Origin: Antrodiella citrinella
Lineage: Eukaryota; Basidiomycota; Agaricomycetes; Polyporales; Steccherinaceae
Reading direction: 5' to 3'
NCBI GenBank assembly: GCA_004802725.1
Contig: SGPM01000050.1
Location: forward strand, 1-64,000
Length of the DNA: 64,000 nucleotides
Every line of letters begins with the position of its first letter. The stretch's first letter is position 1. Positions 11,363-36,767 of this stretch are shown one piece after another. Below the pieces are notes generated by a model, which worked only from the letters and a program-made list of their open reading frames with translations, did not search any database and had not been told where the DNA came from. The translations under genes were made by a program, and so were the position numbers.

Positions 11363-11559
11363 TTGTACTTAGTGAAGTGTGTATTTGATCGTGGCAGATG
11401 AACATACTGATATTACTATATCTTCCCCTCATGAAAGCACCGATACTAACAGCACTTCAACCAAATTCGCTCACAAGATACTGAGTCCTAAGTAAGCTGC
11501 ACGCCTTTATTTGCAGGGTTTCGAACCCTGCTGAGTCGAAACAATGTTTCAAGATGCAG
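11363..11559. other. Left flank of the KDZ transposon
   Basis: About 200 bp between the F-box relic and the transposon end. It includes a perfect hairpin at about 11515-11534 (GCAGGGTTTCGAACCCTGC) that looks like a tRNA T-arm but has no tRNA around it. Confidence 0.4.
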
Positions 11560-12339
11560 CACTTCAGGGTACCCAATCTGACCCCTCTTAAGTGGTACAT
11601 AAGTACCTTTTTATCTCCCTTAAGGGGTCCCTAATACAGGTCAGTAGACAGTGTAGTGGCTGGTTTCTGGCCACTACAGGCATGGATCTGGCCACTCCAT
11701 GGCAGTGTCTGTTGAACGGCACAGCCCATACTGCAGGCATAGTCTGGATCAAGTAGAGCTGAGCCCTTATGGCACAGCTATGACTCAGCGTACTCAACGC
11801 CAGTACGAAGTCCCTATGCAACATATATGGTAATATGGCTTATGTAAACTACTTTGTACATGTATATAAGGGCAGCCTCTTGCGCCCCCAATCCATACGG
11901 TTTTACAGACCTATCTTACAAGTCGCAAGCCTCTCTCATACACACCTCTCAGGTAAGCGGTGCTGCCCACGCAAGGCTGCTCCAACAGTGTCAGCCAAGC
12001 AGGAGTGGCCTGTCTGGCCACTTTGCTGGCCACATAGTGGCCAGTGCACAGGGCATTTTGCCCACTATGGTGGCCACTTTTGGGACAAAAATTCCACGAT
12101 ACTGGCCTATCATGGCCCATCGTGTGGCCACATTTTCCAGTGCACTGGCTATGGTTGACAGGTCATTGGCCAGTGTACTAGCCTGTACTGGCCACTTGTC
12201 TGGCCCATTTTCCAGTACACTGGCCATATATTTTCCATCATCCTGTCACTGGTCACGGGGTGTCAGGGGTCTTTTTTCAAGAAATTTTGTATATTTTTCC
12301 TGGCATTCCTATGCCAATTCCACCCTTATTTTTGAGTAT
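11560..12339 (+). repeat. Left terminal inverted repeat of the KDZ element, interrupted by a solo LTR
   Basis: It matches the right end (30769-31265) in inverted orientation over 497 bp without indels once 11710-11992 is removed. The outer 70 bp contain nested dyads: GACCCCTCTTAAG (11580) with CTTAAGGGGTC (11619-11629) around GGTACATAAGTACC (11594-11607). The inner part is studded with TGGCCA and GGCCAGT words, probably transposase contact sites. Confidence 0.9.
11710..11987 (+). mobile_element. Solo LTR (278 bp), 5 bp target duplication
   Basis: It begins TGTTGAACGG and ends CTCCAACA, so the termini are the perfect 5 bp inverted repeat TGTTG/CAACA typical of LTRs. GTGTC precedes (11705-11709) and follows (11988-11992) it. 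The right TIR of the KDZ element preserves the empty site, with a single GTGTC, which confirms the insertion. A TATA-like GTATATAAGG lies at 11862. No internal retrotransposon sequence is present. Orientation is by the TATA box only. It inserted after the two TIRs were formed. Confidence 0.9.
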
Positions 12340-12585
12340 ACTGGTGGAGAATGTGTATGCATTTTGTCACAGATGTAATCATTTTATAAGCATCAAAACT
12401 GAGCAAATTGATTTAGATAGTTGTTCAGAACAAAAACACATCTCTTGATATATTCATCTTCCTTGTGGAAACATCAGTAGACAGCATCAATAAATTACAT
12501 GCACTTTTCAGGAAACCTTGAGAAAGGTGAAAGACCTGCGCACTGTGTGCATGACCATGGTGATTGAGAAATGTGTCTTGCAACC

Positions 12586-12812
12586 AGGTTGTGGCCACTC
12601 GACTGGCCTGCCCACAGGGTTGTGGCCACTCGACTGGCCTGCCCACAGGGTTGTGGCCACTCGACTGGCCTGGCCACCGGGTCATGGCCACTCGACTGGC
12701 CTGGTGACTGGGCCGTGGCCACTTGACTGGCCTACCCACTGGGTCGTGGCCACTCAACTGGCCTACCCACTGGGTCATGGCCACTNGACTGGCCTGCCCA
12801 CTGATTGTTGGC
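12586..12812 (+). repeat. Left subterminal tandem array, about 31 bp unit
   Basis: About seven copies of a unit of the form GTGGCCACTCGACTGGCCTG followed by a variable CCCACAGGGTT or similar segment. Each unit holds two GGCC words. A comparable GGCCA-rich array lies inside the right TIR at 30256-30500. Paired subterminal arrays of this kind are usual transposase-binding regions. One N is present at 12786. Confidence 0.8.
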
Positions 12813-12933
12813 CACTGACATCTAGCCAAATGTCCTGTCTCATGTTGACATGAACAATAGCACTTATGNTATTCTTCTTCATATNACAATGTAGCCAGAA
12901 TTGTANGCANGNTGTCAAGNACAGTAATAAGCA

Positions 12934-15900
12934 TTAATACACTCGGACACGTTTTTTAGGTGTCCGTGGTGTACCTGGTATCTGCAGTACACTACCATAC
13001 AACTCTACACCAATTGGTCTCACCGTGATGTCCGTCCAATCTTCATTCTCGTCAGTGAATGCACTTTGTTCATGACTTGCCTCGAGATCCTGTATCAGGC
13101 CTGCATCTCCTTCCTCCCCATCATAGTACTCCTCGTCATCTTGTGCTAAGTCCATCTCCAGATCATCCCCCTCCCTGCTTTCCGTCAAGCTCTTCACGGC
13201 CGTTGTGCGAAGTAGCTGATCTCTCGCGTGCTCCTCCGCCCACTCCGGACCCCAATTGGGTAGTAGTGCATATGCTGGTTTCACTGACGCAAGCTTGCCT
13301 TCCCACGTAATGCACACGTCTAGTAAGGACTCTTGGTGTGCTTGCAGCTGGTACTTCACATCATCATCTGATGCTATCCAAAAGATGTCGGTTTCGACAC
13401 GAAGTTTGAATATAACTGCTGACTCACCCATTTCAATCGCAATTGTTGCAACCTTCCATTCGACCGCAAACCACTCCTGTAAAGCACACCGCTCCCATCC
13501 CAGACGTTCCATCTCCTCTCGACATCGGTCCAGCTCTAAGAGATATCGTATCCCCTCCCTCACGTGCTCACTTCCTAACCACCGCGGCACCTCTTCGTCA
13601 TCCACATTCTCAAAGCCAAGCTCCTGCCATATATCGTGATCAACGTCGAGCTTGAAGAGTCCATCCATCTTGATTGCCCGCGGAGCAACCGAATGAGCGG
13701 GAGCCTTCTTCTTGTCGATCAAATCCTGCATCTTCGCGCACAACGTGTTGTACCGCCTGACGAGATTTGTGATGGTAGCCTGCCTGGATTTCAGAGATGC
13801 AGTGATATGTGACGATAGATTTGCTTCTACGGTGATGATCAGCATGTTGTCCGCAAACTCATGAACTCTATTCGACGTACCATTCACGGCCGTCCGAAAC
13901 GATCTTTCCAAACGGTCAAGTTCAAACCGTCGACTGCGCATACGATGGATAATGCGGGCAGCAAGGGCATAAACATTGACACGGCAATTGATGTACTCAC
14001 TCTTCTTCAGCCGACTCAGCTGCTGCTGCTCGATCACACCAAGCTTGCCCATCGCCGACCGCTTGTTCAACTCGAGTCGCTCCTTCGTCAACACGAGCTG
14101 CGCCCGTAATCCGCTCAGCTCTAGCATGATCTCTGCAGTGATAGCGTTCCTGTGGTCATTGGGTGCACTCATCTTGTCGTCAATAGCCTTCACTTGCTCA
14201 TCCACGGCATCGATGGCACGTTGTATTTCCATGACGAGCTCGATGGCCTTCCTACCAGCGTTCTTCTGCTGACCTACAACACGACGAGTCAGACAGCCGG
14301 CACTCCTGCGCAAGTATCATTACTTACGGGCCAACGGCTTTGTTTGTGCAACCACCTGCTGGGCGTGCTCCGTTNGCAGTTCTTCGTCAGTAAGCGTACT
14401 GTCCGCGAGCCGAAGTTTGCGAAGCTCAGCTTCCAGTTTGTTCATTTTGTCGATCGTCAAGTTCCACTTCCGGAGAACCCAGCTCGCCAACTGAACGAGC
14501 GATTGCGAACGATTGAATTGGATTTGCTCGTCCAAGATCATTTTGCGCTGATAATACTGCATTCACTTGATCAGCAAACACAAACGGTCACAGAAAATGA
14601 GCCACATACCCCACTGACTCGCAGACCTGGGATGAGCACCTGAAGGATCCTCCACAATCTCTCGCANCCCTCCCCATCCGTCAACCCAAAGCCTACGCGT
14701 TTGCGAGGATGGTAGATGAGCTGGCATACCCACTCATGTCCGTATGCATGGAAGACGGCNAGAGCAAAGAGAAATCGCTCGAGGTCATCACCAAAGTACC
14801 CATGCTTCCGGCAACTGCGTTCCAATTGGCACGCGATGTCGTACAGGACACCGATCTTCGTGTCAGGAGGGAGGTGTTTAAGGAGTTGGAAGAGCAGTGC
14901 GAGGGCGTAGTGCTGCTTCTCGCCGGCCGAAGTCATGTTGGCCAGCCATAGTACTCGATCGTGGCGACACACAAGAGCCATGAGACCAGTGTCAGCAAAA
15001 TACTTGGTGCTAGCCTTGATACGACGCTCGTCNGCTGCTTTAAAAGATTCCCCACAGCTCTCCAAGACCGAATTCGGAATTTTCATGCCGTCCTCCAACT
15101 TATCATCCGTCGTATCAGGTGGTGTCTGCTTCTTTCCTCCTTTCTTTCCTCTCTTCTCCTCCACAAACCCTTCGATCTCATCCAGGAAATCCTCACTGAG
15201 GAAACAGGTGTTTGGATGAGCCCTGGGAGCATCGTGTAGCCCACCTTTCGTACGGCGTCGTTTCTGCGTGAAGCATCCATCCAGCATCACGAGCACATTT
15301 GGCCTGTTTAAAAATCCGATGAGCAGACTATACACATTGTCGTTGATATCCGACTCACGCTTTATAATGCCCCGCCCGCATTCTGTCATATATTGTCGGA
15401 GAAAAGCATATCGGGCATGCCGCCTGTAAATACGAGCTGGGATAGCGACGCTGCTCATCCAGAGTCGCCGACGAATCACCCGTATGATCTTGCCGTGGAT
15501 CGGCTGATGGCTCCTTGAGCCCTGTAGGGAGATCTTGAGGCGACGAAGGGAATGGCGGGGACGACGGCGGTAACGGAGACGACGGTGGTAACGGAGACGA
15601 CGGCGGTAACGGAGACGACGGCGGTAACGGAGACGACGGCGGTAACGGAGACGACGGAGAAGATATTGGAAAGGGAACAAAAATGGTGGACGAAGAACCC
15701 AGAGAGGAAGCGTTTACCATCGTGGATGACGACGACGGATGAGACGGGGGCAATTCAGAGGACCCGGTCGCGGGCGATGACAAGCCGTCGCGGACTGCAA
15801 AATCACCGTCAGATATCGTACGATGAGTCGCTGCGTAACGGATGATCAGCTCAGCTGTCATAACAAAGTTGGCGACCTACATTCATCTTGGAGCACAGTC

Positions 15901-17031
15901 TGTTTGCATGCATCCAATTCGCGCTGAACTTTTGCTGCAGCCTCGTTTATCAACACTATGTACCACTGAAGAGCTTTCCCGAAACGTTGGCGCAAAGAAT
16001 CCTGTTCATCGAATCAATCAGCTATGTTCGAGCTCTCAATTGACCACACGGAACTACCTGATGTGCAAGCTTGTACTGACGTCTCCATAAGAACGCTTCC
16101 AGCGCACCGCACCACGCAGTCACATTGGGCGCAAGGCGGACAAACAACTCCCGAACAAATTCGAGCATGCTAAGATCGACAGCCAAAGTTGGGTGGACCG
16201 GACTGCATGGGAAGAACCCCTTGCGAAGGAGCTGCACCGCGGCAGGAGAACATTTGCATACGAGAAGCCTTATACAGTCAATACCTATTCCGTTGGTTCA
16301 ACCGCGAAAGTAGTTTGCACAAACGCAATACACTCACTGTCCAATCGCACACACAGCACCTCTAGATTACGCCCCTCTTTACATCCACAGCTGGCTTCGA
16401 CCGGAAAGGGGTTTCGAAAAGACTCAGTCAATCGAACGAGCCGTAGATACGGACCGACGAGACTGGGGATAGTTGTGTTCATCCAAGTCTGCCACTGCTT
16501 CTCCTTCTTCTGACGATGGACAGGCTTCGCAGTGGCGCCCACATCCTGGATGACTTGGAAGCCCATATTGAGGTACGACGGTTCTTCTGCTTGGACTGGC
16601 AGATCATCAGCCGGCAGACTGGCTGGATTAGCATCGGAGGCGGATAGGACAGCGTCCCGCGGCACGCTAGGACCCAAAGGGCGGTTAAGCAGCGCAGCAC
16701 GGTCCTGCGAACGAGCCCATTCATATCCACCTCGACCTTCTGCAAGAATCGGTAACGGTGAGACGTCTGGCAAATGAGCGGTTCCCCTGGGCCTCCGCTG
16801 ACGAGGCAAGTCATGTGTCGAAACGAGGGTTCTTGCCGAAGACAGAGCAGTGGCAGGAGGAGCGGAAGATGAAGACGAGGACGCCGATGGGGTCGACAGC
16901 GAAGACAAAGAAGACGAGCCCGCAGCTCCAGCGGATTTCTTGGCCAGGCGTCGCTTTCTTCCTCTCTCCAAAACCTTCAACGNAGCCGACATCGTAGACA
17001 ATGGACTGTACCGTCGCATTCCTCCCCACAT
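12934..17031 (-). CDS. KDZ-superfamily transposase with CxC1 cysteine cluster
   Basis: Seven exons: 16992 (or in-frame ATG 17031)-16338, 16284-16058, 16001-15881, 15830-15359, 15303-14610, 14556-14328, 14273-12934. All introns are 50-56 bp GT-AG and phases agree; 1245 aa from the inner ATG. N-terminal CxC1-type cluster: CGCKEG, then LLVCKCSPAAVQLLRKGFF, then HPTLAVDLSMLEFVRELF. A CPICF zinc motif precedes the catalytic core: VLVMLDGCFTQKRR (D500), FADTG, GVLYDIACQ (D647), then HAYGHEWVCQLIYHPRKR and DGExCERLW. The last exon is a long coiled-coil region with LFKLDVDHDIWQELGF. The KDZ family and CxC1 are known; which acids are catalytic is my inference. Several single N bases fall in codons; no frameshift is seen, so it could be active. 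Confidence 0.9.
15560..15660. repeat. 18 bp minisatellite within the transposase coding region
   Basis: Five or six near-identical copies of ACGGCGGTAACGGAGACG. On the coding strand they encode a repeated PPSSPL unit in the linker before the zinc motif. The unit length is a multiple of three, so copy-number change keeps the frame. Confidence 0.85.
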
Positions 17032-17436
17032 TATTTGAACATAAAAAAAGACGAAAAAACAAAGATCAGCACGAGGAAACAAGAAATTCAAATTATGCAC
17101 GCACCCTTATCGCAGATCCGACCAGTTTCATTACAAACAACACCTATGGGGAAGCAGTTCGGCACATCAATTGCTACGATATAAGTCGCATTNGTGGGCA
17201 CGAGCCCAAATGAACGTCCCTTGCTCAGCCCAACTAAACTGCACTACAATTGAGCGCAGAAAATCAAGATATGTAGATTAGTCCATGATCAGCTAAAGCA
17301 ATATACACAATTATTATACTACACAAGATGTCCACAAGAGACTTCAGTTCCATGTTTACACTACTACGGAGTCCAACAAGAAATGCATCGACAAGACAAG
17401 TGCAAGAAAAAAAGAACATGCTACAGATATGCAACC
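17032..17436. other. Intergenic within the KDZ element
   Basis: About 400 bp of A-rich DNA between the two leftward genes. It holds the promoter of the transposase and the 3' end of the 888-aa gene; no coding potential seen. Confidence 0.5.
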
Positions 17437-20214
17437 TCAGATAGTTATCGGGGCTTGAGGCTCGACGAGCAGAGCGTAATAATGGTCTTCGACGGACTTA
17501 GGCACGGCGAGAGGAATGGTAGGCAAGCGCTTGAGGACCTGATGCGCGGACCGGAGATAAAAGGCGTAGATTTGCTGATTATCGCCTCGTTTCAATACGC
17601 TGGGGCGAATATATTTTGCCAACCCATTATCACCTCCATCCACGGCCTTCGGGGGACCATACCGAGACAGGAGGTCCGTCATCTGCGATCCTCCAGGCCA
17701 AACAGACATGCAGTCAGCGAAGCGCTTCAATGCCTTCCCGTACGAGGTATCATCTTTCTCGGACAAGAGATCAATCTCTAACGAATGATCCCAATCCGGA
17801 AACACAGCACCCTCCGAACTCCAGATTGAAATTACCTGATGAGAACGCATCAGAGCTTGGGTCGGGTCTGCGTAAACGCCAGGACAAAGCTGTCGATCAA
17901 CGTGGAGCATTTCCAAGCGGAAGTTCACCAGAGCAAGCTCCCAAAGAACCTCACGCCAAAGGCCACCGTTACCGCGGACTGCACCCTCATTAAGTTTCCA
18001 GCGCCCCCAAGACACCTCTTCCGTTGGATCCCAAGGTGTGAAACCGGCATGCACTCCCAACCGCACATTGACATCGACACGTTCGGCCTTCCTGCGCTGG
18101 TCGGAGCGCTCAACGGACTTGGGTCCCTTGCGAGCTCGCTTTTTCATTCCACCAGCAGTGCCAACAGTGAGGGAACCAGAGGGAGCAGAGTTGATGGCAG
18201 GAGCATGTGAAGGGCGAGTGTGAGGGCGCGCAGCGTTCACATGAGCTGGCAGACGAGCAATATCCGCTGCCGCAGAGAGTGGCTGCCAATGGTCGGACGG
18301 AATATCCTGCACACGATAGTACAGACCATCCAGGGCATTCCTCCAAGCTGTCTTCGCCCAAAGAGCTCCATGGGACGGCGAGTTGACAGCTTGACTTAGA
18401 CACCATGTGCGAATACGGATCCAATTGTGCAAACGACGACATCCGCTCGCTGACTGAAGCTCGACGGAGAAGAATATGTCCGGAGGAGGGGCAAAATACA
18501 GAAGGCGGCAACGGTCAATGTCACCCAAATCGCAGGACTTGACAACACCCAGCCACCCTTGCGCTTCGACTGGCACCCATTCCGACCGTTGCAAAGGGTC
18601 AGCCTTCTGCTTCTGCGTCTGTTTTATGCCGCCGGCTGACGAAGTTCCTGCCGCATCCATTCGTATACGACTCGTCGGGACAGCCCCGTCAACGTCGTCA
18701 TCGTCAGAATCCGTGAGCAAGTGGTAATAGTCTACAGAGGGTGATTGTGGAGAATCCATGTCAACCTCAGCATTATTTTGAACTAAAGTTCAATGCGTCT
18801 ACAATTAATACAACACCAGTTTAAATAAAGGAGATACGCACTCTTCCATGTCTCGGCATCATCACCGCTCGCTCGCATAATATCATCAATTTCTGGCCCA
18901 AGCTGCTTCTCATTCGCTTGGTTTCGCCGAGTCAATTCCTCCTCAGGCAACCCCGGCTCAGCCCCATCGAATGAAAACTCATGATTTGTGGACTGCTCAG
19001 ATGACAAGGCCCGCGCCGCTGCAGCAGATGCAAGGGCTGGGTTGTACTCCTGAGCGCCCGTGACAAAAGCCTGCATAGATACACTGACGCGTTGAATCCT
19101 CTCCAAAAGGGTGGAAACGGTTGGAGACTCGAAAGCTTTCCGCGTCCAAGAAGGGGTCAACACTGGCTGGCGACCCAAGCGCATCACAGGCAAAGAGCTG
19201 AAAGACATCCGAGCGGAGACAGGTACTACGCTGCGGTGCACCAATGTCGACGTATTGAAAGTGTCCAACATTCGGATGTACCAGACGGGAACCCCAGCAC
19301 GATGCAAATCGCCCACCAACTCTACATCATTCGAGAAGACCCCGCGCAAAGGCAATATGTTGTCGCTGTGGTCCGCCTTGCTGTTGATTCGTGGCCAAAG
19401 CACAGCGTAGTAATTAATCCATGCTCGCATAGCCAAAAGCACGCGCTGATACTCGCGGAAGAGCAACATCGTGATCAAAGGGGTCTGCCCACCGTCATGC
19501 AGTTTCCGATAAGCATGCAATAGACGCACTCGAAGGACTTGTGCGCGCTGAATGTCTTTGTCGATTTCAAAGTTCTCCGAGTCAGACACAGATCGGCGAG
19601 CCTCGTCCAAATCGTCTTGTAAATTGATCGCGAGGACGCCCACCTCAAGCATAGCAGCCCTCAGACGCGAAATGGTCTCCCGGTCCAAACATCCGAATTC
19701 CAAGGACGGGAACACCTTAGAAATGGTGAAGTTACGAGGGCGTATGTGGAACCACGGAGCTTTCTCGTCGGCGTACAGTGGGAGAANGTGCTTGTGGTCG
19801 AGGAGGGGGAAGGTTTGCAACGAACAGTACATGAGATCGAGGTTCCCCGGCGCAGCCATCGCCCACCGTGCGTTCTCATCATGAATTTGCGGCCATTTGA
19901 AAAACTCCAGCCCTCCCATCATACCGTCTTCGTAATACCGCACTCTGTCATCATCCGCGTGAAGTTCAGGGATATACTCCATGTTGGGCGTCGAAATGAA
20001 GCAATATGGCACGGGTGCGTGCCTGGTAAACCGATAGCAAGCAGTAGCTGTCATCTTTACACCGGGAATGAGGGGTTGTCTTGCCGCGAACACTTGTCTC
20101 ACAGAGGTAAAAGATCGGGCTGTCAGCTGGGTACGCGCGTCAGCTGCAATCCCACCAAAAAATAACGACAACATTTACCTCCGAGTCCTGACCCGATGTG
20201 CTTGCTTCGCTCAT
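17437..20214 (-). CDS. KDZ-element protein of unknown function (888 aa)
   Basis: Three exons: 20214-20179, 20126-18842, 18782-17437; introns 52 and 59 bp; total divisible by three. The first exon (MSEASTSGQDSE) is chosen because it joins in frame with a normal intron; an alternative ATG lies at 20174. The N-terminal half has ordinary globular composition, with VELVGDLHRAGVPVWYIR as its most striking segment. The middle (residues about 430-480) is acidic (SDDDDVDG), then PPPDIFFSVELQSA. A Lys/Arg-rich nuclear-signal-like patch (GGMKKRARKGPKSVERSDQR) sits near residue 660. No catalytic motif is seen. Proteins with this LFxAGxPVWxIR-like block occur near KDZ genes in mushroom genomes as far as I recall. 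Transposition accessory or cargo roles are both possible. Confidence 0.85.
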
Positions 20215-20319
20215 CGTATAGGTTGTGATTGTACGCTTAAGATGATATTAGAACTTTACGACGAGGATATTGAAAATCATCATTACCTCACTGAACGGCT
20301 TTGATGGTGATGAATTNGT

Positions 20320-20880
20320 AAGTCCTACTGCGATGCTCCTGCCTGTATACCGTTCAGAATGCGTACAATCGTTCAATGAAATCTGAAAAGAGAGGCGTAC
20401 GTGTCCTCAAAGGCCTTGCGTGCTACGGGTCTTTCTCTCTCCGAATCGAATGTCTAGCTGGAGGTCAGTACAACATTACGAATGTCGTACAACGTAACCT
20501 ACCGCTCGCAAACAGGCAAGGGAATCTCTTTCCAAATTACGCTGATGGCCGTTTTGGGCCTACGTGTCAGATACCGTCAGAGTTATGCTAGGAGGATCCT
20601 GAACTTCTGTTTTACCTTAGTGAAAATGATTGATCTTGTTGAATCCCAAAGTCCTGGTCGAGTACTCCGGGCTGTTGTCCTTTCAGAACATGCGCAATCG
20701 CAGGCAACGATCACAGAGGGACGTACCGTTCGTTAAGGTCCGAAAGCTGTCTTAGTCTTCCTTTCTTCGAATCGAATTTCTGGATGGTGGACAACTCATC
20801 AGTTCGACCTCATCTCCATCACACAACGTAACCTACCGTCCACGAAGTCGCAAAGGCTACCTTTCCGATTTGCCTCGCTG
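20320..20880 (+). repeat. Two diverged direct copies of a roughly 240 bp block
   Basis: Shared landmarks in the same order are GTCCT, TTTCAGAA or TTCAGAAT followed by TGCGYACAATCG-like sequence, CGAATCGAAT, and CAACGTAACCTACCG. They are at 20320-20560 and again at 20650-20880, about 330 bp apart. Copies are clearly diverged, so this is an old duplication. Confidence 0.55.
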
Positions 20881-21013
20881 GCTTTGATCCTTTCCCTACA
20901 TTCATCCGACGCTTCAACCCCTGCATTCCCTCCCTGAGTGACAAAGAAAACACATACCCAATGGATTTTCAACAGACTGAACGCAGAACACCGCCGCTAG
21001 GACGTAGTCTTCA

Positions 21014-21080
21014 CAAGCTGAATAGCTCGACGAAGAACAAAAATCCGTTGCAGACACCCAATGACAAGCTGAATAGCTCG
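21014..21080 (-). repeat. Two covarying hairpins, minus orientation
   Basis: Positions 21014-21029 and 21065-21080 read, on the minus strand, CGAGCTATTCAGCTTG. Stem pairs 3-14 and 4-13 are A-T and G-C. They lie 800-870 bp upstream of the leftward 888-aa gene and share its orientation. Confidence 0.8.
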
Positions 21081-21419
21081 AGAATGGGGGTGGACAAGGG
21101 GAAGTGGAAGGACAAAGCGTCAGAAAAGGTGTGAGAAGAGGATATGTGGAATGTATGAGTGACGATGGAGGGAGGAGAATGCTACGTGGGCGACGACGCG
21201 ATGTGGTTGTTGAAGTAAAAGCCGTGAGAAGCGACTGGCGCTCTTTGAATGGGGCGATCGGCAATTGCCGGTGGCCTTCGTTCATGTCAAGAGTTTCGTC
21301 TGTGGGTTGAACACCCCCCTCTGAACGAAATCCGAGTCTGTAGTCTTACTTGGGTACGTTCATAGTATATTCATCCAACTCAACTAAGGCCGAATCTTTG
21401 TTTCAGGTATGTGGCCTTG

Positions 21420-22030
21420 CTCTCAGTGAAACGCCTAACCGAACCGCGGCACTGCTTGTCTCTACCACGCCCAAACTGCCCCACATCGTTTTGTACCAGA
21501 GTCCGGGCTATTCAGCCTGTTCTCCTGTGCATTCACTCTTATTTCAGTACTCGACGTCTGTGAGGGTTTCATGGTAAAGACAAACGTAAGTCCTGATGAT
21601 TTCGTTTCACTCGTTTCCGCGTTTACCTAAGGTTGGTAGACTGCACATACTTTACACTTCCTCGTTCTTGCGTGCCAGAGTCCGGGCTATTCAGCCTGTT
21701 CTTGTCGTGCATTCTCACTCGTACCTGAGTACGCCTCGTCTGTGAGCTTTCGGAGGCAAAGACATCGGTGCGTCGGGATAATCTCGTTTCACTCGATTCC
21801 GTGTTAACCCTAGGGTTAGTAGACTGCACATACTGCACATCCACTCGTTCTTGTCTGCTGGAGTCCGGGCTATTCAGCCTGTTCTAGTAAGATATTTACT
21901 CATACTGGTGTATTCTACGTCTGTGAAGATTTGATAGGTTCGTCCTCTTAGTGTCATTACACTCGATTCTGCGTTAACCTAAGCTTAGTAAATTGGGCTA
22001 ATTTTACATTAACCCGTTCTTGTACGACAC
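21420..22030 (+). repeat. Three tandem units of about 180 bp with two internal dyads
   Basis: Each unit carries the hairpin CGGGCTATTCAGCCTG (21504, 21683, 21866) and, 100-140 bp later, a second dyad that differs between units but stays palindromic: TTTACCTAAGGTTGG (21622), TTAACCCTAGGGTTAG (21804), TTAACCTAAGCTTAG (21974). Other shared words are TTTCACTCG, TAGACTGCACATAC and CGTTCTTG. Confidence 0.75.
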
Positions 22031-22553
22031 CATGCTGGCCATCTACTACACTGCCGGTGAGATATATGCCGATATTCATGTGATCATATTATGTTAGTCC
22101 CACGCATTCTGTGTATGCTCTCCAAAGACCTTTACTGTACTTCAGTTATCGTCTAACCGTCCTGCAGAATGCGTTTGGCGCGATTCTTGATTTGCTGTAT
22201 AATACACAGTCTTTGCTGAATGATTATGACATTACGTACCTACAACCCATGTACTGATGACGTGTGCAACCAATCGAGCAGCGCGACTCAACAAACAAAC
22301 GGCCCTGGTGGCCACATTACCTGAATCAGGAAGGTTCGATTCCTTATTCGTCGATATATCATCCATATAAGGCAAGAACTTGGGGGCCTCGGCGTTGACC
22401 GTAGGATTGGGTCGGAGTTTGAATGACTTGTCGACCAGTCGACTGCCACTCATTCCAGTCAGTCACTCCTGCCTACATACGTGTCCTTCACTCCTCCTTC
22501 TCTAAATACTCATACCTCTCCATCACCTCCACACTTTTCCTGCGTTGTGTGCC

Positions 22554-22593
22554 CGGGCTATTCAGCCTGCGCCAGTCCGAGCTATTCAGCTTG
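22554..22593 (+). repeat. Two covarying hairpins upstream of the Ulp1-like gene
   Basis: 22554-22569 CGGGCTATTCAGCCTG and 22578-22593 CGAGCTATTCAGCTTG, 24 bp apart. The second ends 42 bp before ATG 22635, so both are likely in the promoter or 5' leader. The two neighbours differ at two stem positions, and the two changes are compensatory. Confidence 0.85.
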
Positions 22594-22634
22594 CACAGCA
22601 TCGCTTTTCGTGTCGCTCCGTTCGCGTCCAGGAT

Positions 22635-25356
22635 ATGAATCACCAGTCAAAATCAAACGTGTGTAGCTTGCTCTGAGCCACGATTTGCACTCATATCTGG
22701 CAATTAGCCGTTTGGGCGCAAACCCAGCCGTGACATCGACGTGGAGGCCGTCTTCGGAGAGCTGGGCAGGGTCCAGACGTCTTCACTCGCCGTGTTTCGG
22801 AGGTACGTGTGCTGTGTCTTTGGAACGTCTTGATTCTCACATCATTCTCCCAGCGCTGCGTTCAGGCCGGCGCAGCTGCCTGTTGACATGTTCGAGGAAC
22901 GCCTTGCGGCTGTCCATGGGGAGACAAAGGCAGACGGTGGTGAAGAGCAGTGAGTAGATGTGTTATATGATTCTTCCGACTGGACCACCCATTTGTTTTG
23001 TTCTAGAGTCTCGAACACGGGTCGAAGAGACCTCCAGGCAAGGATGGCAGCGTCCAATCACACTCTCGCGCAGTACGTCTTCGCATATTCACATCGGAGA
23101 CGGCACACAGTGACCTCTCATCCGTAGAATTGCATCCAAGGCTCTGCCGGAGCAGGAGTTCGCAAAACAGACGGCAGCGCCTCACAATAGTAGAAGCAAG
23201 TGAGTCTTCGTGCAACTCATCGATGATCAGCACTTCAACGTGGGGGATGTGGAACTAGACCGTTCTCAGTGGCAGTCCCATCCATGGAATATCTGGATTT
23301 TATGGCGCGGTCAGCACGCCCGTGAGTCTGGTGGACCACATGAGCTTATTGTACTTGATCAATGACCCACTTAAACCAGCTATCCTCCGACGTCCGCAAA
23401 TTCTGTCTCCCAGGACACCAGAGGTACGGGACCGATCAGGACGAAGGTGATGGCACACACCTATATGAAGGAACGGTTGTTGACAACGGCTGACAAACGG
23501 TCTACGGTGTAAGTTTTCTCTGAACGTAGCTCATTTATCATCGGCTGATCTCGGTCAGATATTCCGCAAATCATGCGTCAGGACCGACTACCACCACACA
23601 TCAGTTTCACGATNGGCCTATGTATGTCGGTGATGCTTCTTTGCCTCACGCGCACTAACAATATTTCAGGTCGAAGCCATCCTCCAGTCGGGAGGTTGGC
23701 GGACATGCGTCGACGAGCCAAATATCTTCTGTTGCTCAGTCATCGATGCATGTGGATTCCCGTCATACTGAGCAGTCGACTCATTCTCTGCCGGTGGTGA
23801 GATCATCGCAACCGGCCCAGGTTGTTGCATCTGTCGCCTCGACTGGCAAATTCAAAGTTCGTGATGATGACGCCGTCGCAAAAGTATTTGGTGATTGGGA
23901 ACATATGCCTGCAGACGTGATGAGCTCGAAACTGTACATAGCGTCGCACAAAGATCATGAGAAGGCTCTCCATTTCGCCACGCGGCTCACGCAGCGCATG
24001 CAAGGGCAAGTGTTTCCTGAGCGATGGGAGCCCATGTTGTCGGAGGGTTTCAAGACCACAACAAAGTACTGTCTGACTGTTTTGTTCGTGTCTGGCATCC
24101 CCCTTACTTATTCTAATGACAGAGCGGGCACGTGGGTTGGTCTGAAGGGAGAGAAACATGTCCTCATGAACACCGACATCCTGCGGATACGCCATCCGGT
24201 TAAGGGTGTTCGGGCCGTGGAGCTGTATCTAAGTGATACTTTGGTTGATGTTGGTATTCAGTGCGTATCACTCCTTGTTTGGTCGTGTATATCTTGATCA
24301 AATACTTTGCTAGGATGCTTGCTAAGCAGATGGCCAAAAGCGATGAGGACCTCGAGCAATCCATGCTTGAGTGCAACCTCTATCCAGCCCGACATGGACA
24401 GGCTCTGTAAGTCCTTGTCAGATTTTGGGGGCGGTGACTGACGGTGTCATGCAGTCATTATGGCAGGGCGAGTAAATTGATGCACATGCTGCGAAAGCCC
24501 AAGCCACACTCATTGCGCCCTTTGTGGGACAAAGAGAGAATCCTGATACCAATTTGTGGGGCGTATGTATAACCTTCGCTCTTGTTAGGCGAGAGTGTTT
24601 ATCATTTGAAATATTGCAGCTCGCATTGGTATTTGATCGTTGTGATGAATCCGGGTGCCTTGATCAAACCGGCGAAAACCAACTCTCGAAACATACGTAC
24701 CGTGGAGTGAGTGAATACGTGGTCTTCGTCTTTGCAATGTTCCTGACGTTGGTTTAGCGATAAATGCCTTATCGTAGCATTGGATTCGATGACTGTGAAG
24801 AGGGATGTGACGTTCGACGCGGTGGATGACTATCTTCGTGATCGCGCTCACAAGGAAGGCAAAACAATTGTCCGCAATCCCGTCCATCTCGATCTCCTGG
24901 TAAGGTTCCGCATGTTTTGTGATGTGGCCGGGCAAAATGATGAATTTGGGTTAGGTCCCCGCTCAACCGAACGCATATGACTGCGGAATCTTCACCATCT
25001 TTTACGCCGCGATCGTTTTTTCACGCGGGGATTGGTTCAAGGACGTGGTGCAGAGTCAGCTGGACCTTGCCACTGCAGTCACCTCCGGCACCCATGTTGG
25101 GTTCGCTGTTCGCTGGAACGAGGTGAAGATGATCACTGATTTGCGTGATGGAATCCGTAACGCCCTGGCCGCCGAAGTTCAGGATGATGCTGTTCGCTTG
25201 ACAACGGGTAATTCTGACGAATCTGATGAATCTGAGGTGGAAGTCTTAGGTTCTTCCTCGTCACACACTCGCACTGTCCCCNGGAAGAAGCTACCGCGAG
25301 GTAGCATGGTTCCGAGTTTCCCGATTTGTAAGGACGATGTCATAGATATTGATTGA
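22635..25356 (+). CDS. Ulp1-type (C48) cysteine protease carried by the KDZ element
   Basis: Fifteen exons: 22635-22658, 22708-22802, 22854-22949, 23007-23072, 23128-23199, 23259-23321, 23380-23508, 23559-23621, 23670-24065, 24123-24260, 24314-24406, 24455-24562, 24620-24706, 24758-24899, 24955-25356. Introns are 48-59 bp; total 1974 nt, 657 aa. Residues 1-250 are polar and variable. The protease core has the full triad in order: GASHWYLIVV (H450), IVALDSM (D486), QPNAYDCGIF (Q528, C534). Ulp1 enzymes cut SUMO or related modifiers from proteins. A Ser/Glu-rich tail follows. N bases lie at 23614 and 25282. Ulp1-like genes ride on other DNA transposons (Mutator-like, CACTA), so a desumoylating accessory role is plausible but inferred. 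The triad is intact. Confidence 0.88.
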
Positions 25357-25851
25357 GTATGCGTTTCTTGGAAGTGTTGTTGTCTCCGTACCTGCGTACA
25401 TTGTCCTCCGTGTAGAAATCTTGTTATTGGGCTGCTAATCTACGATTTGAGAGTTGGACGCCAAGTGGTGTGCTTGAACGGCATCCAATTGAACGACCAA
25501 TGTCAAAGCTAATTAGCGGTGAGTATTTCAGTGATGCTTGTATATGACTTAGGCTGACTCTAAGTTTTAGACGCAATNTAAGGGGAATTCTGATCATCAT
25601 CCCCTGATGCGTCGTAATCCGAGGATCGGTGCGTACCTTCTAATGTGCAGAATATGATCTTTGAATCTGGCTGCGGCCCGAGGTCCACGTACCGTACTCG
25701 ACGTGTTTTGCATGTGACCGCGTTTTACATGTGACCGTGTGACTTTGACTCCCAGNAGGTCGTCGTCGTCGTAAGACTCGTATTGCGCTCACATTCACGT
25801 CCTACGTAGCACATCACTGGGTTCGTCTAAGTGTATCTTTCCCAATTCACC
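25357..25851. other. Intergenic within the KDZ element
   Basis: About 500 bp between the two rightward genes, with two N bases (25577, 25756). No coding potential; it should hold the Ulp1-like terminator and the next promoter. Confidence 0.5.
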
Positions 25852-28800
25852 ATGGTCTCGTTACGCAGTGGGAGAAATGCATCTCCTCTTCCTCAAGCAG
25901 CGCCCAAAAGGCGTCTTGGGAAAATGGGCAAGACGACGGTGGGCTGTTCACGATACTACCTTCATGCTCCAGCGTAACATGTTTTTTAGGTATCCGTGCC
26001 AACGCGAGGAGACGTGGGAGAGGGCAAAGTGGCGCAGGATGAGCATGAAAGTGAGGTATGTATTCGAACCGCTTTTGTGTGCTTCCACCACCGGTCTATT
26101 CAGACTGCTGGTGTGTTGTGTGCGGCGACGGCCTCCGATCTATTCAGATTGTTTGCTGTTTCGCGCTGTTCTGTTTGCGCTCAGTGCTCATCTTATGTGT
26201 GCTAGACCGGCGGATTGGTTGAGGATAAAAACGATGATACGGTGAGAGGCAATACCCCTTCGTTTGTGACATTGAGATGATGTAGTTTGTGTCTCAGAAC
26301 CTCAACAGACGACCGGGCCTTTCTACCAAGCCAATGTATGGCTCAGAAATTGCTCCTGGCATTTTGGTGAGGTCGTTTTGTGCACATAAGGTCTTTATAT
26401 TGCTCAAGGTTCGTTTTTCAGGACATCGAGGACCGTCCTATAGATCGGGGCAGTCGTGCAGGGTCCCCCAGCCGGGAGGCTGGTCCGTCTTCTCCCACTA
26501 AGAGTCGCATTCCCGATACTACATCTCTTGAGGGGGAGGCTGCATCCACTATTAACAGTTTAAGGTCTCGATTCGGTCGTGTCATTAAGCCAACTTTGAA
26601 AATGGGAGGAAACAGTAGACGTAGCCGTCGTTCTCCCTCGCCCAGTGCGCTGTCTCCCCCGCCTCCTGGCTATTATCGTTCCCCTACGCCCGGTGCTCCG
26701 TCTCCACCGCCCCCTTCTCCGCCGCCCCCTTCTCCGCCGCCCCCTCCTCGTCGTTCCCCTACGCCTGGTGCTTCGCCGTCGCCCTCTTCGCCGCCTCCTC
26801 GTCGTCGTTCCACTATGCCTGGTGCTTCGCCGCCGCCGCCTGGTCGTCTGTCTCCCCCGTTGCCTGGTCCGTCGGTGCCCGATCCTCCTTCTCCAGAGTC
26901 GATGTATTCACATGAGGAGGACGACTATGCCAGGACACGGGCCAGGAGGAGTCCCTCTTTAAGTGACTCAGACGGTGATGACCTTGATGAAGGTGTACCA
27001 GAGGATCCAATTACGTTGGAGGATGTTGTGCCGAAGAGTCGGCCCGCTAAGAAACGCAGAGAGAAGAAGGTCAATAAAACGACGAAGGATAAGAAGCAGG
27101 ACAAGGGGAAGGGGAAGGCAAAGGCAAACGAAGTTGATAGCGACGAGGAGGACGTATCTCCTACGACGCAAGCCGCATCTACCTCTTCTTCGTTGCAGAA
27201 AGAAGAGGACAATCTTCGGGCGAAGATTGAACACATTCTTCGCCTCGCGAGGGAGGGGATTGAGGATGAGGATGAGGATGAGGGCGGGGTTGAGAGTGTG
27301 GCTCCTAAAATGAATAGTGGACCTTTGCCTGTGGAAGCAGATGAGGCCTGCAATCGGGTGAAGAAACTTGTTGATCAGCTGAAGCTAGTTTGGGCGCGCA
27401 AGTACCAGAAGCCTCCTGAGTTTTTCGCTCGGCGCATGGGCATGTCAATAAAGCCGCATCGTGAAACGAGCCAGTGGGGCCTCTTTCAGAGAAAATACAA
27501 GCAGGAGAATCCGAATCGTACGTGTGGCATAGATTTTCTCGATAGACAAGTCTTCACGTCTCACATAAATACGATCAGTGAACAAGAAGAAGTTCTCGAA
27601 GCTGGCATCTACTGCATACAAGAAGCTCAACGACTCTATGGATGAGTGGACACAGGACGCCATCGACCTGTACTGGGACCAAGTACGGAGCGAGTTCGAT
27701 GCAAGCAAGGTAGCTGAGTCAGATGACGAAGAGTACTGGTCGGACAAGAACGTCCGCAGTCGTGTCAGAGACTTCGCACTCCAACTGACAGACATTGTGC
27801 GTTTGCGTCTTGGTTCGCCGTACAGTGACAAGTTGCTTAATCTTTCATCTCGATTAGATCAACACATTTGGGCGGTTGCATGGTACACATGCGATGGGTG
27901 TTGTGGTTCATGTCCCGGTAGACGATGGATCCCAGTACATACAGTGGTTCGGTAATACTAAGGAGACGAAGGCCTTGATGGACGCGAATGAGGATATTAT
28001 GAACCAACTTAATGGATTTATTCGAACATCGATCGCGTACGTGACTCTGAAATAGGAATACCTAATGAAAATATACTGATACACTGGCAGTGCGTTAAAG
28101 TTCGCGCAAATGGGTTGGGACGTAGGACCTGGGCTGGAAACCATTCTTCAATGGTCGAAAACGCGTGCGGTGCCTACACCGAAACCCCTTGTGCTGGTGT
28201 CCGATTTATTGTCGTCGACATCAAAGACACAACNCCAACAGTCGCGTAAAACGGCGGCGAAGGCAGGAAAGGCGAAGAAGGTGAAGGTGGACGGTGAGGC
28301 AGAGTTAGAGGATGAACTGAATGGCGGCGGACTTGCTCCTTCTGACCTCACTGCGTCGGCTGAGGAAAAGCGGACAATGTATACAGCGCAGACATTGAGG
28401 CGTTTCAGTGAGGGATCATCTGTCGTATATGTCTCACTGTGACTGATCATTAGATTGATGACAGACGAAGCTGGCAAACTTGCAAACGAGGTGTGGCGTC
28501 CGGCGGCCNAGTTCCAAGGTCGTAAATTCCTCGACGTAGCAGTGAAGTACGGTGTTCGTTGTACGAATGTCCCTTCCCGTGGTGGGACGAAGTTAACACA
28601 TCCAGGGAAGGGATACGATCGTAAACATGTGCCGTTCAACCTACTGGGGCCAGGGCGAGGATGGATGTTTGAACCTTTGTCAAAAGGTATGTAATGTCTG
28701 TGTGCAATATGTTTCTCCTGTAACATGGAGGTTTTTCAGAGGATCTGGCTCTCCCGAAGAATTCCACCGAGTGGGCGAACCTCGCATTGGTGATAGACAC

Positions 28801-29647
28801 AGACGGCAACGCCATCCATCGCGTCAGAGATAGCGATGTGTGGTTGAGTAAACACGGCCGTGCATACATCCCCATGGCGGACTTGAGGAGCGGCGGTGAT
28901 GGGGACAGTGGTGAGGAGAGCAGTGGTGAGGAGAGCAGTGGTGAGGAGACTGTGCTGCCTGTTGAGAAGAAGAAGGATGTCAGAGGGAGCAGGAAGAAGA
29001 AGCGGGAGGATGACGGAGAGAGCGATGGACAGCGCAAGCCGAAGAAGTCCAAGGTGATCGCCAAGGACGACGACTATCGGTCTTCCGTTAGCGGTGTACC
29101 AGATGCCCACATGTCTTCCCAACGATTGCCCGTCGGACGTCGTCCGGATCCGGATGCTCACGCAGAAGCAGGTCCGTCGCGTGCTAAAGATGCAGCTCGT
29201 TTCTGGGCGGACGATATGGATGTGGACGGCCNACTGCCCTCGTTCATGGATGTTCACGAGGGGCCGCCTGCACCAGCCTCTCGCCAACGTCATTATGATG
29301 GTGTCGCTGATTCTTCCGCCAAGGCTCATCGGTCGGAGGTGCGCCTGGACCGCGGACCTGTCAGTGGAATGATTCGCTCGATGGAGCTTGACCGAGCGTT
29401 GCATGCTGTGAAATCCGAAAAGGAGTATCAGCAGGCCTTGGGTCACCGTGCGTTCTACGTACAGACTCGACTTCGCGAAATCACTCAGGTGGCGGAGGCT
29501 CAGGGCGGCCAGGTGGATGCGGCCTTGCAGGAGGAGTTCAAGACCCTCATGGTAGTCGGAGACCAGCTCAAGGAAGAACATCAACGCTCAAGCACACAAT
29601 TGCAGACGGCTGAAGAGCGATTGGCAGCGTTGACGGGCGATCAGTAG
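25852..29647 (+). CDS. KDZ-element Pro-rich/coiled-coil protein of unknown function (1065 aa)
   Basis: Ten exons: 25852-25938, 25990-26055, 26206-26241, 26298-26366, 26422-27517, 27579-27796, 27858-28036, 28091-28407, 28465-28686, 28740-29647; 3198 nt, all phases agree. Most introns are 50-61 bp; the second (26056-26205) is 150 bp and holds two covarying hairpins. Residues about 150-260 are Pro/Ser-rich (SPPPPSPPPPSPPPPP), followed by an acidic and Lys-rich region. A globular block starts at ETSQWGLFQRKYKQ and includes RLHGTHAMGVVVHVP and IQWFGNTKETKALMDANED. The C-terminus has SSGEE repeats and a terminal coiled coil (QQALGHRAFYVQTRLREI). I see no catalytic motif. It may bind DNA or chromatin; that is a guess from composition. 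N bases at 28234, 28509, 29232. Confidence 0.85.
26092..26151 (+). repeat. Two covarying hairpins inside an intron
   Basis: 26092-26107 CGGTCTATTCAGACTG and 26136-26151 CGATCTATTCAGATTG, 44 bp apart, both within the unusually long second intron (26056-26205) of the 1065-aa gene. Relative to the other copies, stem position 4-13 is T-A; the two differ from each other by a compensated G-C to A-T change at 3-14. Confidence 0.85.
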
Positions 29648-30768
29648 ACAGTTGATATGCTAGCCCGTTGTTCGCAGTGTTGTTTGGTTCTTTTGCTACA
29701 TCATGTTCTGTGGTTCTTTTGCTATGTTCATTTTTTGTCGGCTTGTCCACTACATCAAGAGCTTCCGTCTACTAAACAGTGCATTGAACATTGTGATGGA
29801 CGGACTATATCCATGTGTCACCCCTTTCTTCCCTTTGTTTAGATTTCGCCTTTGTCACGTGGAACGATATAGTCCTGCGTCGGCGCATTGTGAGTTTCTT
29901 GTTCGTCCTTTCACGCACCGCTCACAGGTAAGTTATTTCTACACTTCATCTCTGTATTCATCCTCTTACGCATAGTTCCCAGGTCGCACTTTGATTTTCT
30001 ATCTCCCGCCCACCTACTGTGTTCACGATCTACTCNTTCTGCTTGATTTTGTTTCATGTTTTCTACTCTACTACACTAGCTCTGTAGTTGCCTAAGTCTG
30101 TTCCCCCATGTACACCGAGGCTCGAAATGGCATTGACTCTCTGAAACGCAATAGCTTGAGTAATTTGAATGTGTGCATGATATAAGAACCTTTAGTAGTC
30201 TGTGTCAAGTAGATATGTTATGGTATTGTTCAAATGCAAATGAGACAGGANAAAGATTTGGCCAGATGCCAGTGGCCACTCCACCCGTTGAGAGGCCAAT
30301 TGAGCAGCCAGGCCAGTTGGGTGGCCAGACCACAGTGACCAGGCCAGTGGAGTGGCCAGACCACAGTGACCAGGCCAGTGGAGTGGCCAGCTCTGTGTGT
30401 CCTGGCCAGTCAGGTGGCAAGCTGTCTGCGGCCCGGCCAGTCGACTGGCCACGGCCCNGTCAGCAGGCCAGTTGGGTGGCCAGACCACAGTTGCCCAGCT
30501 AGTCGGGTGAACACAGGTCAGTGCACTGCAGAGTTCTCAGTCACCCTTAGTCATGCCCACAGTAGGATAGTCTTTTACCATTCTCAAGACCTGAAAAGTG
30601 GATGTAATTCACTGGAGCTGTATTGACAGTCTATCCCCCTTGATGTTCCCTCAAGGATAAATATCTCAAGACATGATGTTTTTTTTTTTCTCTAAGTCAA
30701 TTCAGTCTCATCTCATGATCATAAATATATTACCTGTTTGAGAAAATGGGTACACATTCTCAAAGAAA
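29648..30768. other. Right subterminal region of the KDZ element
   Basis: 1.1 kb after the last gene. It has AT-rich sequence with short frames, a GGCCA-rich array at 30256-30500, and a run of 13 T at about 30678. No gene. Confidence 0.6.
30256..30500 (-). repeat. Right subterminal GGCCA array
   Basis: Repeated GGCCAGTGGAGTGGCCAGAC-type units with spacing of roughly 30 bp. It mirrors the left array at 12586-12812 in word content, although unit sequences have diverged. N at 30459. Confidence 0.75.
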
Positions 30769-31265
30769 ATACTCAAAAATAAGGGTGGAATGGGCATAGG
30801 AATGCCAGGAAAAATATACAAAATTTCTTGAAAAAAGACCCCTGACACCCCGTGACCAGTGACAGGATGATGGAAAATATATGGCCAGTGTACTGGAAAA
30901 TGGGCCAGACAAGTGGCCAGTACAGGCTAGTACACTGGCCAATGACCTGTCAACCATAGCCAGTGCACTGGAAAATGTGGCCACACGATGGGCCATGATA
31001 GGCCAGTATCGTGGAATTTTTGTCCCAAAAGTGGCCAGCATAGTGGGCAAAATGCCCTGTGCACTGGCCACTATGTGGCCAGCAAAGTGGCCATACAGGC
31101 CACTCCTGCTTGGCTGACACTGCCATGAAGTGGCCAGATCCATGCCTGTAGTGGCCAGAAACCAGCCACTACACTGTCCACTGACCGGTATTAGGGACCC
31201 CTTAAGGGAGATAAAAAGGTACTTATGTACCACTTAAGAGGGGTCAGATAGGGTACCCTGAAGTG
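30769..31265 (-). repeat. Right terminal inverted repeat of the KDZ element (497 bp)
   Basis: Inverted copy of the left TIR with no indels and about seven mismatches. It lacks the solo LTR and so shows the intact GCAGTGTCAGCC target. The outer terminus reads GGGTACCCTGAAGTG on the plus strand. Confidence 0.9.
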
Positions 31266-33020: not shown

Positions 33021-33190
33021 ATCTATGATGAGGCAGTTCTCGTAGATCAACAACGGATTTATCATTGATCCCGTTTTCGTAGATAAAGCCCTCTTTTCGT
33101 GTATTTCCCCCTCTCTCATGCGTTTGCAAGAGCTCAGCCAAACGCAATACATTCATTCTATTCCTACTGTCCTCAGGAATTCTAACAGAA
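33021..33190 (+). repeat. 170 bp inverted repeat, left copy
   Basis: Nearly identical, in inverted orientation, to 37432-37600. The outer ends read ATCTATGATGAGGCAG and the inner ends TTCTAACAGAA. I see one mismatch and one 1-base indel. The pair brackets 4.2 kb holding a small gene, a tandem duplication and a KDZ relic. Confidence 0.9.
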
Positions 33191-35911: not shown

Positions 35912-36767
35912 CAGCCAAAAGAACATGGATTACGCGTTTGCGAACGCCATGGGGCGCTGGAAAGGAACCTTGACGAAGATTCTCCTTTTGTAGGATGTCA
36001 ATTGCCAATATCAAGCACCTTTACGACAGAATCACCGCCTCAACACAATTACAGGACCTCGTGGATATCGAAGCGCTATTCATCCAATATGGCATCGGGT
36101 TGTTCCATGTGCATTCGCACAGCAACACATGTTATTGCCGATTCGCGCCGACGTACATTCGAGGCGCAGGTATGATAGATGGGGAGTTGATTGAGACACT
36201 GTGGGAGCCTCTGAACCATATCTCTGAGAGTATTCGGGCTATGGTCGGGCTTTCACAGACAGGAGACACCAGACATCCATATGAATGATTCGAATTGGAA
36301 GAAGACTACTCGTATCGGTAAATACCTCTCGCATCGACATCGACATGATACCATTCGATTCATTCAAATTGAACACAGTGCCATATATTCTTCGCAAGTA
36401 CAGGACCGCTGCGAAGAGCGTGGAGGAGACTGAAGAAGAATACAACAGTTTGTGCGAGACGACAATTGTTCATGACAACATGGCCGAATGGCTGAAGATG
36501 GAAGATGCGGCGCATCACGCGCGATCGGAAAGTATGACACAAGTCCACCGCATGGATATATATGACACGTCCAAACAAGCTGGTATGTTCTTGCAATGCC
36601 GATCTCCTACTATAGACATAATCGCTGGTGTAGGTCCCAGCCGAGCTGACAAGCAATTGGCACTCGTTCGTAAGGAATCAGGAGACCTTGTTGGGGCTTC
36701 GGCATGGATGGATCAGTTCCCAAATTCGCCGCTAGTCAACAGCCCCTCAGAAGTCCATGTTGCTTGA
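35912..36767 (+). pseudogene. Decayed KDZ transposase relic (not the type in the 19.7 kb element)
   Basis: Fragments of a KDZ core occur in order but in different frames. KNMDYAFANAMG is followed by a TAG where a tyrosine is expected, then DVNCQY. A shift leads to GIGLFHVHSHSNTCY and DGELIETLWEPLNHISES, another shift to DIHMNDSNWKKTTRIGKYL, and a third to EWLKMEDAAHH and MDIYDTSKQ. These blocks match the C-terminal core of KDZ transposases linked to the CxC2-type cluster, not the CxC1 type at 12.9-17 kb. At least one stop and two frameshifts make it non-functional. It lies between the 170 bp inverted repeats, but nothing shows that those belong to it. Confidence 0.75.

Follow-up and report, generated by a model that had tools for sequence, protein, structure and literature searches.

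A stretch of 64,000 nucleotides (nt) from the draft genome of the basidiomycete Antrodiella citrinella (contig SGPM01000050.1, positions 1 to 64,000; hereafter the window) contains a KDZ transposon in which a short hairpin recurs nine times, and the comparison with related elements of the same genome strongly supports a conserved RNA structure. The unit is best described as an RNA stem-loop of about 40 nt. It has an outer stem that varies, a small bulge or internal loop, and a conserved inner stem whose last two pairs, C-G and U-A, lie below the tetraloop, in most cases NUUC or AUUG. As a rule two copies would stand together, in the 5' leader or within a 5' intron, at several genes of a KDZ transposon lineage. 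The explanation that we prefer, and hold with about even confidence, is that the stem-loop is a private RNA tag of the transposon genes: a factor encoded by the transposon would bind this loop on nascent or precursor transcripts and thereby co-ordinate the expression of the element's own genes.

The genome examined was the window's own draft assembly (30.0 Mb, 602 contigs), in which the window's element lies on the contig denoted C442. Our catalogue comprises at least 56 hairpins on nine contigs, including two near-identical inverted duplicates on C396, and excludes a match on C368 with five of the six inner pairs. The genes referred to below are the KDZ transposase gene, an Ulp1-like cysteine peptidase gene and two genes without a known domain, termed gene A and gene 3 (Table 1).

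The hairpins of the window

A preliminary description of this DNA, made from the letters alone, had listed nine copies of a 16-nt hairpin within the element. All nine match the pattern CGRNCTATTCAGNYTG exactly, whereas none of 100 shuffled windows gave nine matches (mean 0.01), and all four combinations of stem pairs 3-14 and 4-13 that had been reported are present. The statement that the window holds no other stem-forming copy was likewise confirmed, as CTATTCAG matches only once more, at 10487 and off the stem pattern, and the next-best hit of a covariance model has E=2.8. The claim that the loop, the inner pairs and the G-T pair 2-15 never change stands inside the window's element and fails in its relatives, where most loops read CTTC or ATTG, pair 2-15 occurs as A-T, G-C, A.A or A.C as well, and pair 6-11 as T.G or C-G. 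Furthermore, the 16-mer proved to be the tip of a longer stem, since its flanks pair as well. Genome-wide, exact matches to CGRNCTATTCAGNYTG number 14 (nine in the window, four on C429 and one on C137), compared with none for the reversed pattern.

Relatives in the same genome

C429 carries a diverged copy of the right part of the element, about 78% identical at the nucleotide level over the main pieces. C386, C28 and C524 hold deeper relatives whose KDZ exon is 65-79% identical over the matched part; the Ulp1-like exon reaches 54% protein identity in C386 and 49% in C28. A scan for recurring hairpin cores, with a threshold of at least three copies, found the family again on these three contigs, with the loop CTTC replacing ATTC, and returned no core with at least three copies in six control pieces of the window. 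This threshold overlooks two-copy loci and missed C383, which was later recovered by the covariance model. Run on selected loci and complemented by further patterns, the model extended the family to a third class with the loop ATTG on C396, C383, C314 and C137.

The paired copies are concentrated in elements. A relaxed pattern, CRRNCTNTTCAGNYYG, matches the genome 65 times, compared with 10 times for its reverse; 39 of the 65 matches fall within five element copies and pair completely without exception, compared with three completely paired sites among the 26 elsewhere (C137, C257, C342). Random spread, lack of pairing and strand neutrality, which would have spoken against a transcript structure, are thus the opposite of what was seen. 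On C257 the paired site resembles coding sequence of the host. The hairpin is present on every one of the six contigs with an Ulp1-like match and on six of the ten with a strong KDZ match (C442, C386, C524, C28, C396, C383). The contigs C158 and C203 probably do not include the expected place; no hairpin was seen on C103 by the recurring-core scan and the covariance model over 10.4 kb, nor on C218 by pattern and in two short loci.

Two loci deserve separate mention. C137 has four hairpins at 36203-36316 and 41080 with the mixed loops GTTG, GTTA, ATTG and ATTC; three of the hairpins follow one another at 54-59 nt. The contig, which gave neither a KDZ nor an Ulp1-like match, perhaps holds a decayed relative. 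On C396 the hairpin-bearing leader occurs twice, inverted and nearly identical (13650-14300 and 16850-17478), so that two opposite leaders of that element share one sequence.

Pairing, covariation and conservation

Inner-stem bases were counted in the 42 copies of the AUUC and CUUC classes, i.e. in 252 cells of six pairs each. All six pairs are kept in 41 of the 42 copies, and the cells comprise 226 Watson-Crick pairs, 25 G.U, one A.G and no A.C. Among the 16 distinct sequences 95 of 96 cells are paired, and none of 500 shuffles reached the observed pairing, the number of cells changed on both sides or the covariation score. At one orthologous array position, for example, pair 6-11 is U-A in C28, U.G in C524 and C-G in C386.

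The outer stem was analyzed with the inner stem held fixed. For 12-nt flanks the mean folding energy is -12.72 kcal/mol, compared with -10.14 (standard deviation 0.34) when the 3' flanks are swapped within an element, a difference reached in 0 of 2000 swaps; taken element by element, the observed energy was reached or undercut by 0 of 2000 swaps in C28, C386 and C442 and by 6 in C524. With 14-nt flanks swapped over 54 of the 56 copies, the two inverted-duplicate C396 copies having been removed beforehand, the values are -14.45 and -10.93 kcal/mol (0 of 2000, and again 0 of 2000 in each of three contig groups), while the nine window copies alone gave 1 of 2000. For the AUUG group the analysis took ten of the 14 copies on C396, C383, C314 and C137 and omitted both C396 duplicates as well as the C137 copies at 36316 and 41080, so that C137 contributed two. 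The ten copies form a 14-pair stem with one bulge in which 126 of 140 cells are paired and 28 cells are changed on both sides, compared with 10.1 in shuffles; none of 500 shuffles reached this value or the covariation score. Evidently, compensatory change beyond chance, the mark by which a conserved structured RNA is judged, appears in paired cells, double-changed cells, covariation score and flank swaps.

Conservation speaks for selection on the hairpins. In alignments with the deep relatives the hairpin columns are 88-94% identical and the remaining columns 36-44%; against C429 the corresponding values are 100% and 74-79%.

Placement relative to genes

In the aligned elements the hairpin pairs occupy three equivalent places, all sense to the next gene: before gene A in four elements, before the Ulp1-like gene in five (with 41 nt between the second hairpin and the conserved ATG in the window) and within gene 3 in four, there flanked by a GTAYGTA donor and a YAG acceptor that align, beyond which the sequence is coding-like on both sides. 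In addition, an array of hairpin units, each of about 180 nt in the window, lies between gene A and the Ulp1-like gene; in the four elements where the array is present it comprises three to five hairpins. In the window's array (21330-22000) the splice-donor-like motifs GTAAGT and GTGCGT follow the first two hairpins; within the Ulp1 leader these units may serve as small exons or as alternative first exons in tandem.

The 60 nt upstream of the gene A and Ulp1 pairs are CT-rich (65-83% C+T in nine tabulated leaders), and the four gene 3 pairs have 48-70% C+T in the preceding 60 nt. In 20 of 29 groups a donor-like GTRNGT begins 55-80 nt downstream of the final hairpin; the groups are related to one another and do not represent 29 independent events, and counted by slot the figure is 7 of 11. 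With random anchors the mean was 3.7 and the maximum 11 in 2000 trials, none of which reached 20. The CT-rich run before most pairs, together with the downstream donor, only suggests that the hairpin lies just inside the transcript. Such a placement fits a TAR-like action on the nascent transcript or a control of first-intron splicing, and the intronic position of the gene 3 pair favours the precursor RNA over the ribosome as the site of action. We would rank the possible effects with TAR-like action on nascent transcripts first, followed by control of splicing or export and then by translational autocontrol.

Loop and lineage

The loop is AUUC in all 13 copies of C442 and C429, CUUC in 24 of the 29 copies of C386, C28 and C524, and AUUG in all ten copies of C396, C383 and C314 (eight without the C396 duplicates). 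Stem pair 4-13 follows the gene instead, being U-A in 10 of 10 gene 3 copies from five elements and G-C in 46 of 46 others. Wholesale copying of one hairpin does not explain the uniformity of the loop, because pair 4-13 is fixed by the gene: such copying would erase the gene pattern, and separate drift would erase the lineage pattern. A loop that is nearly fixed within a lineage and different between lineages suggests that each lineage reads its own RNA tag, and since these lineages occur side by side in the same genome, the most economical interpretation is a reader encoded by each element. The orphan proteins of gene A and gene 3 would be the candidates for this role. From the sequence we infer that the hairpins are transcribed, that a binding factor exists, that the element encodes it and that its binding has an effect.

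A more far-reaching version, which we put forward tentatively and with clearly less confidence, is an RNA identity code: the tetraloops AUUC, CUUC and AUUG of the tandem stem-loops would be read by lineage-specific, element-encoded factors, so that several transposon families in one nucleus could each control their own genes and avoid cross-talk. In such a code pair 4-13, U-A in gene 3 and G-C elsewhere, may be a second letter that distinguishes genes.

The strand question

The preliminary description had argued that a strand-specific wobble marks the hairpin as RNA of one strand. The counts of 25 G.U against no A.C in the inner cells support this, while the folding energies given below do not. 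Outer-stem G.U pairs number 27 in the sense and 13 in the antisense direction, and in the AUUG group one G.U is retained in 10 of 10 copies. Pair 2-15, on which the argument had been built, is A.A (four copies) or A.C (one) in five of the 14 copies of C396, C383, C314 and C137, which speaks against it. The orientation to the genes is the better strand argument, and the earlier one is borne out only partly.

Evidence against an RNA tag

Several results weigh against the RNA tag read by an element-encoded factor. In energy terms the antisense strand folds equally well (p=0.83), and for the outer stem alone it has a slightly lower energy (p=0.047). In the set of 16 sequences the number of double-changed pairs was reached by 34 and that of pair types by 283 of 500 shuffles; in the AUUG group the corresponding numbers were 85 and 31. 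C429, with four copies, fails the flank-swap test (831 of 2000), and the outer stem varies broadly, from 1 to 10 pairs (mean 6.2). The five loop exceptions in the CUUC class are all tandem-array copies, and the C137 loops are mixed. The gene 3 hairpins lie in an inferred intron and not in a leader, unless an internal promoter is used, and all four gene 3 groups lack GTRNGT at 55-80 nt. No hairpin precedes the KDZ transposase gene in a scan of 11000-32000, which returned only the nine copies and one five-pair match at 29621; this gene, without a hairpin at 17100-17441, may be expressed with gene A or controlled otherwise. Finally, no RNA-binding domain was recognised among the element proteins tested, and the predicted structure of gene A was unusable (mean confidence score, pLDDT, 35.6).

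Alternative explanations

Binding of the RNA hairpin by a general host protein of splicing, export or translation, and not by a product of the element, appears unlikely to us. Most hairpin groups stand near splice-donor-like sites, and the inner core CUNUUCAG is similar to the stem-loop of animal histone mRNA. The loops, however, fall into three classes, each of which is maintained within lineages of one and the same host, and the hairpins have no Rfam match in the regions searched. A search of the host with the SLBP profile PF15247 gave no match, but gave none in control genomes either.

Rather more doubtful is a duplex DNA operator, i.e. dyad-symmetric promoter sites bound as double strands by a dimeric protein of the element. 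Other DNA transposons have promoter-proximal binding sites, and here too the copies stand in pairs near gene starts, the core is nearly palindromic and both strands fold equally well. For a duplex reader, however, it would be needless that outer stems of unlike sequence covary and prefer their own partner over a swapped one, and flanks matched in this way are not called for by a duplex site. Moreover, all aligned pairs keep one orientation to the gene, and the excess of G.U over A.C in the inner cells points in the same direction. The preference of the preliminary description for a conserved transcript structure over a duplex binding site is therefore supported, as far as sequence goes, by pairing, lower-stem covariation and orientation to genes.

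We consider it improbable that the hairpin is a structured 3' splice site in which CTNTTCAG is the acceptor and the stem hides its AG. The motif is indeed acceptor-like, and donor-like sites follow 55-80 nt further on in 20 of the 29 groups; two array copies, however, have GG for AG with the pairing kept (C386 10051, C524 4032), the AUUG class has TTGAG, and in gene 3 a separate aligned acceptor lies downstream. Repetition by descent only, in which duplication of leader segments spread copies without function, is hardly tenable: the array is a tandem repeat and the C396 leader is inverted-duplicated nearly letter for letter, yet the hairpins are kept amid strongly diverged surroundings and the six inner pairs are intact in nearly all copies of two classes.

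Two further candidates were rejected. A protein-coding repeat (core xLFSL in one frame, with loop base 7 at a synonymous Leu position) fails as the frame is not kept between copies, the spacings of 51, 43, 42 and 43 (gene A pair) and 44 (gene 3) are not all multiples of three and vary between elements, and a 5-nt insertion or deletion follows directly after the second Ulp1 hairpin between C442 and C429. An RNA polymerase III B box, GGTTCGATTCC at 22333, is not retained in C429 or C386, as judged by eye.

The host transposon and its genes

Table 1 Coordinates of the KDZ transposon, its genes and its hairpins in the window.
Feature	Position	Strand	Remarks
KDZ transposon containing the hairpins	11560..31265	.	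terminal inverted repeats, KDZ transposase exon, relatives on other contigs; CA..TG ends
Left terminal inverted repeat	11560..11709	+	97% identical over 150 nt to the reverse complement of 31116-31265
Right terminal inverted repeat	31116..31265	-	partner of 11560-11709
KDZ transposase exon	14571..15713	-	PF18758, E=7.5e-53
Gene A, without known domain	17441..20174	-	two open frames joined across an inferred intron; 59-62% amino-acid identity to stretches of C524 and C28
5' splice-site-like GTATGT	20952..20957	-	56 nt past gA2; GTRTGT at 69-73 nt in C386, C28, C524
Hairpin gA2 with outer stem	21002..21041	-	core 21014-21029, CGAG/CTTG, loop AUUC
Hairpin gA1 with outer stem	21053..21092	-	core 21065-21080
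Array hairpin 1	21492..21531	+	core 21504-21519
Array hairpin 2	21671..21710	+	core 21683-21698
Array hairpin 3	21854..21893	+	core 21866-21881
Hairpin U1, putative Ulp1 leader	22542..22581	+	core 22554-22569
Hairpin U2, putative Ulp1 leader	22566..22605	+	core 22578-22593
Ulp1-like cysteine peptidase gene	22635..25356	+	PF02902 and alignment; conserved ATG 22635; first 5' splice-site-like GTGTGT at 22659
Inferred gene 3 intron holding g31 and g32	26056..26205	+	GTAYGTA donor and YAG acceptor align in four elements, coding-like on both sides (by eye)
Hairpin g31	26080..26119	+	core 26092-26107, pair 4-13 U-A
Hairpin g32	26124..26163	+	core 26136-26151, pair 4-13 U-A
Gene 3 large exon, without known domain	26371..27645	+	domain search

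As outlined in Table 1, the element belongs to the KDZ group by its transposase domain, and its ends are defined by the inverted repeats and CA..TG. A target-site duplication of 7 or 8 bp was not seen by eye in this one copy, the bases outside both ends being different. The C-terminal exon of the Ulp1-like gene matches PF02902 with E=0.0016 and 18.7 bits, slightly below the cut-off of 20.7 bits. The two open frames of gene A presumably form one gene across a plausible intron, and no relatives of gene A were found on viral contigs.

Two observations concern the surroundings. A T-arm-like sequence, GCAGGGTTTCGAACCCTGC, lies at 11513-11531, 28 nt outside the left end, where ARAGORN reports no tRNA; the element was possibly inserted next to a tRNA or a tRNA-like relic. 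To the right of the element, the inverted repeat ATTCCTGAGGACAGTAGGAAT occurs at 33180 and 37442 and the peptide SVRIPEDSRNRMNVLRLAELLQTHERG in frames on opposite strands, which suggests a second transposon or a duplicated segment.

Significance and comparison with known systems

To our knowledge, self-regulation via structured leader RNA is not usually ascribed to cut-and-paste DNA transposons, and among open-licence papers, searched by title and the start of the abstract, none on hairpins of KDZ elements was found. A hairpin shared by several genes, whose tip changes in step within each lineage, would represent a natural experiment in RNA-protein co-evolution. It would provide natural loop swaps, could help to find an RNA-binding protein encoded by an orphan gene of the transposon and might yield orthogonal RNA-protein pairs.

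KDZ stands for Kyakuja-Dileera-Zisupton; according to a 2025 study of fungal transposons with TET genes, Kyakuja elements end in CA..TG and lack terminal inverted repeats, which Zisupton elements have (PMC12730594). The window's element resembles the group in its PF18758 transposase, its length and its Kyakuja-like CA..TG ends, and, unlike Kyakuja as characterised there, it combines these ends with terminal inverted repeats (PMC12730594). The terms hairpin, stem-loop and subterminal are absent from the text of that study.

The comparison with Rfam covered the window and the C386 and C28 regions. No family matches the hairpins there up to E=10, weak small nucleolar RNA and untranslated-region matches occurring elsewhere only, and over the whole window no family reaches its gathering score. 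The core of the histone mRNA 3' stem-loop, CUUUUCAG, shares with the KDZ hairpin the inner C-G and U-A pairs and a U-rich tetraloop. Unlike it, the KDZ hairpins stand near gene starts or in an intron, occur as paired copies and have an outer stem, a purine-rich 5' arm, a C-G base pair at the base and at times a loop ending in G. The histone element (Rfam Histone3) is bound by SLBP. It is also a 16-nt stem-loop (PMC4215118). The Histone3 model gave no match up to E=10 in the three regions above, and the inferred gene models place the aligned copies ahead of coding sequence or within a 5' intron and not at the 3' end of the message.

HIV TAR and similar elements are hairpins of the nascent leader, and by analogy the KDZ hairpins would lie just inside transcripts of a mobile element and have an element-encoded reader; they differ in belonging to a fungal DNA transposon and in forming several short copies at several genes. 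RNA-phage operator hairpins and ribosomal-protein leaders likewise place a short stem-loop with a sequence-specific loop near a gene start. Compared with these, the KDZ hairpin is common to several genes, its loop alphabet switches by lineage and its distance from the start codon varies.

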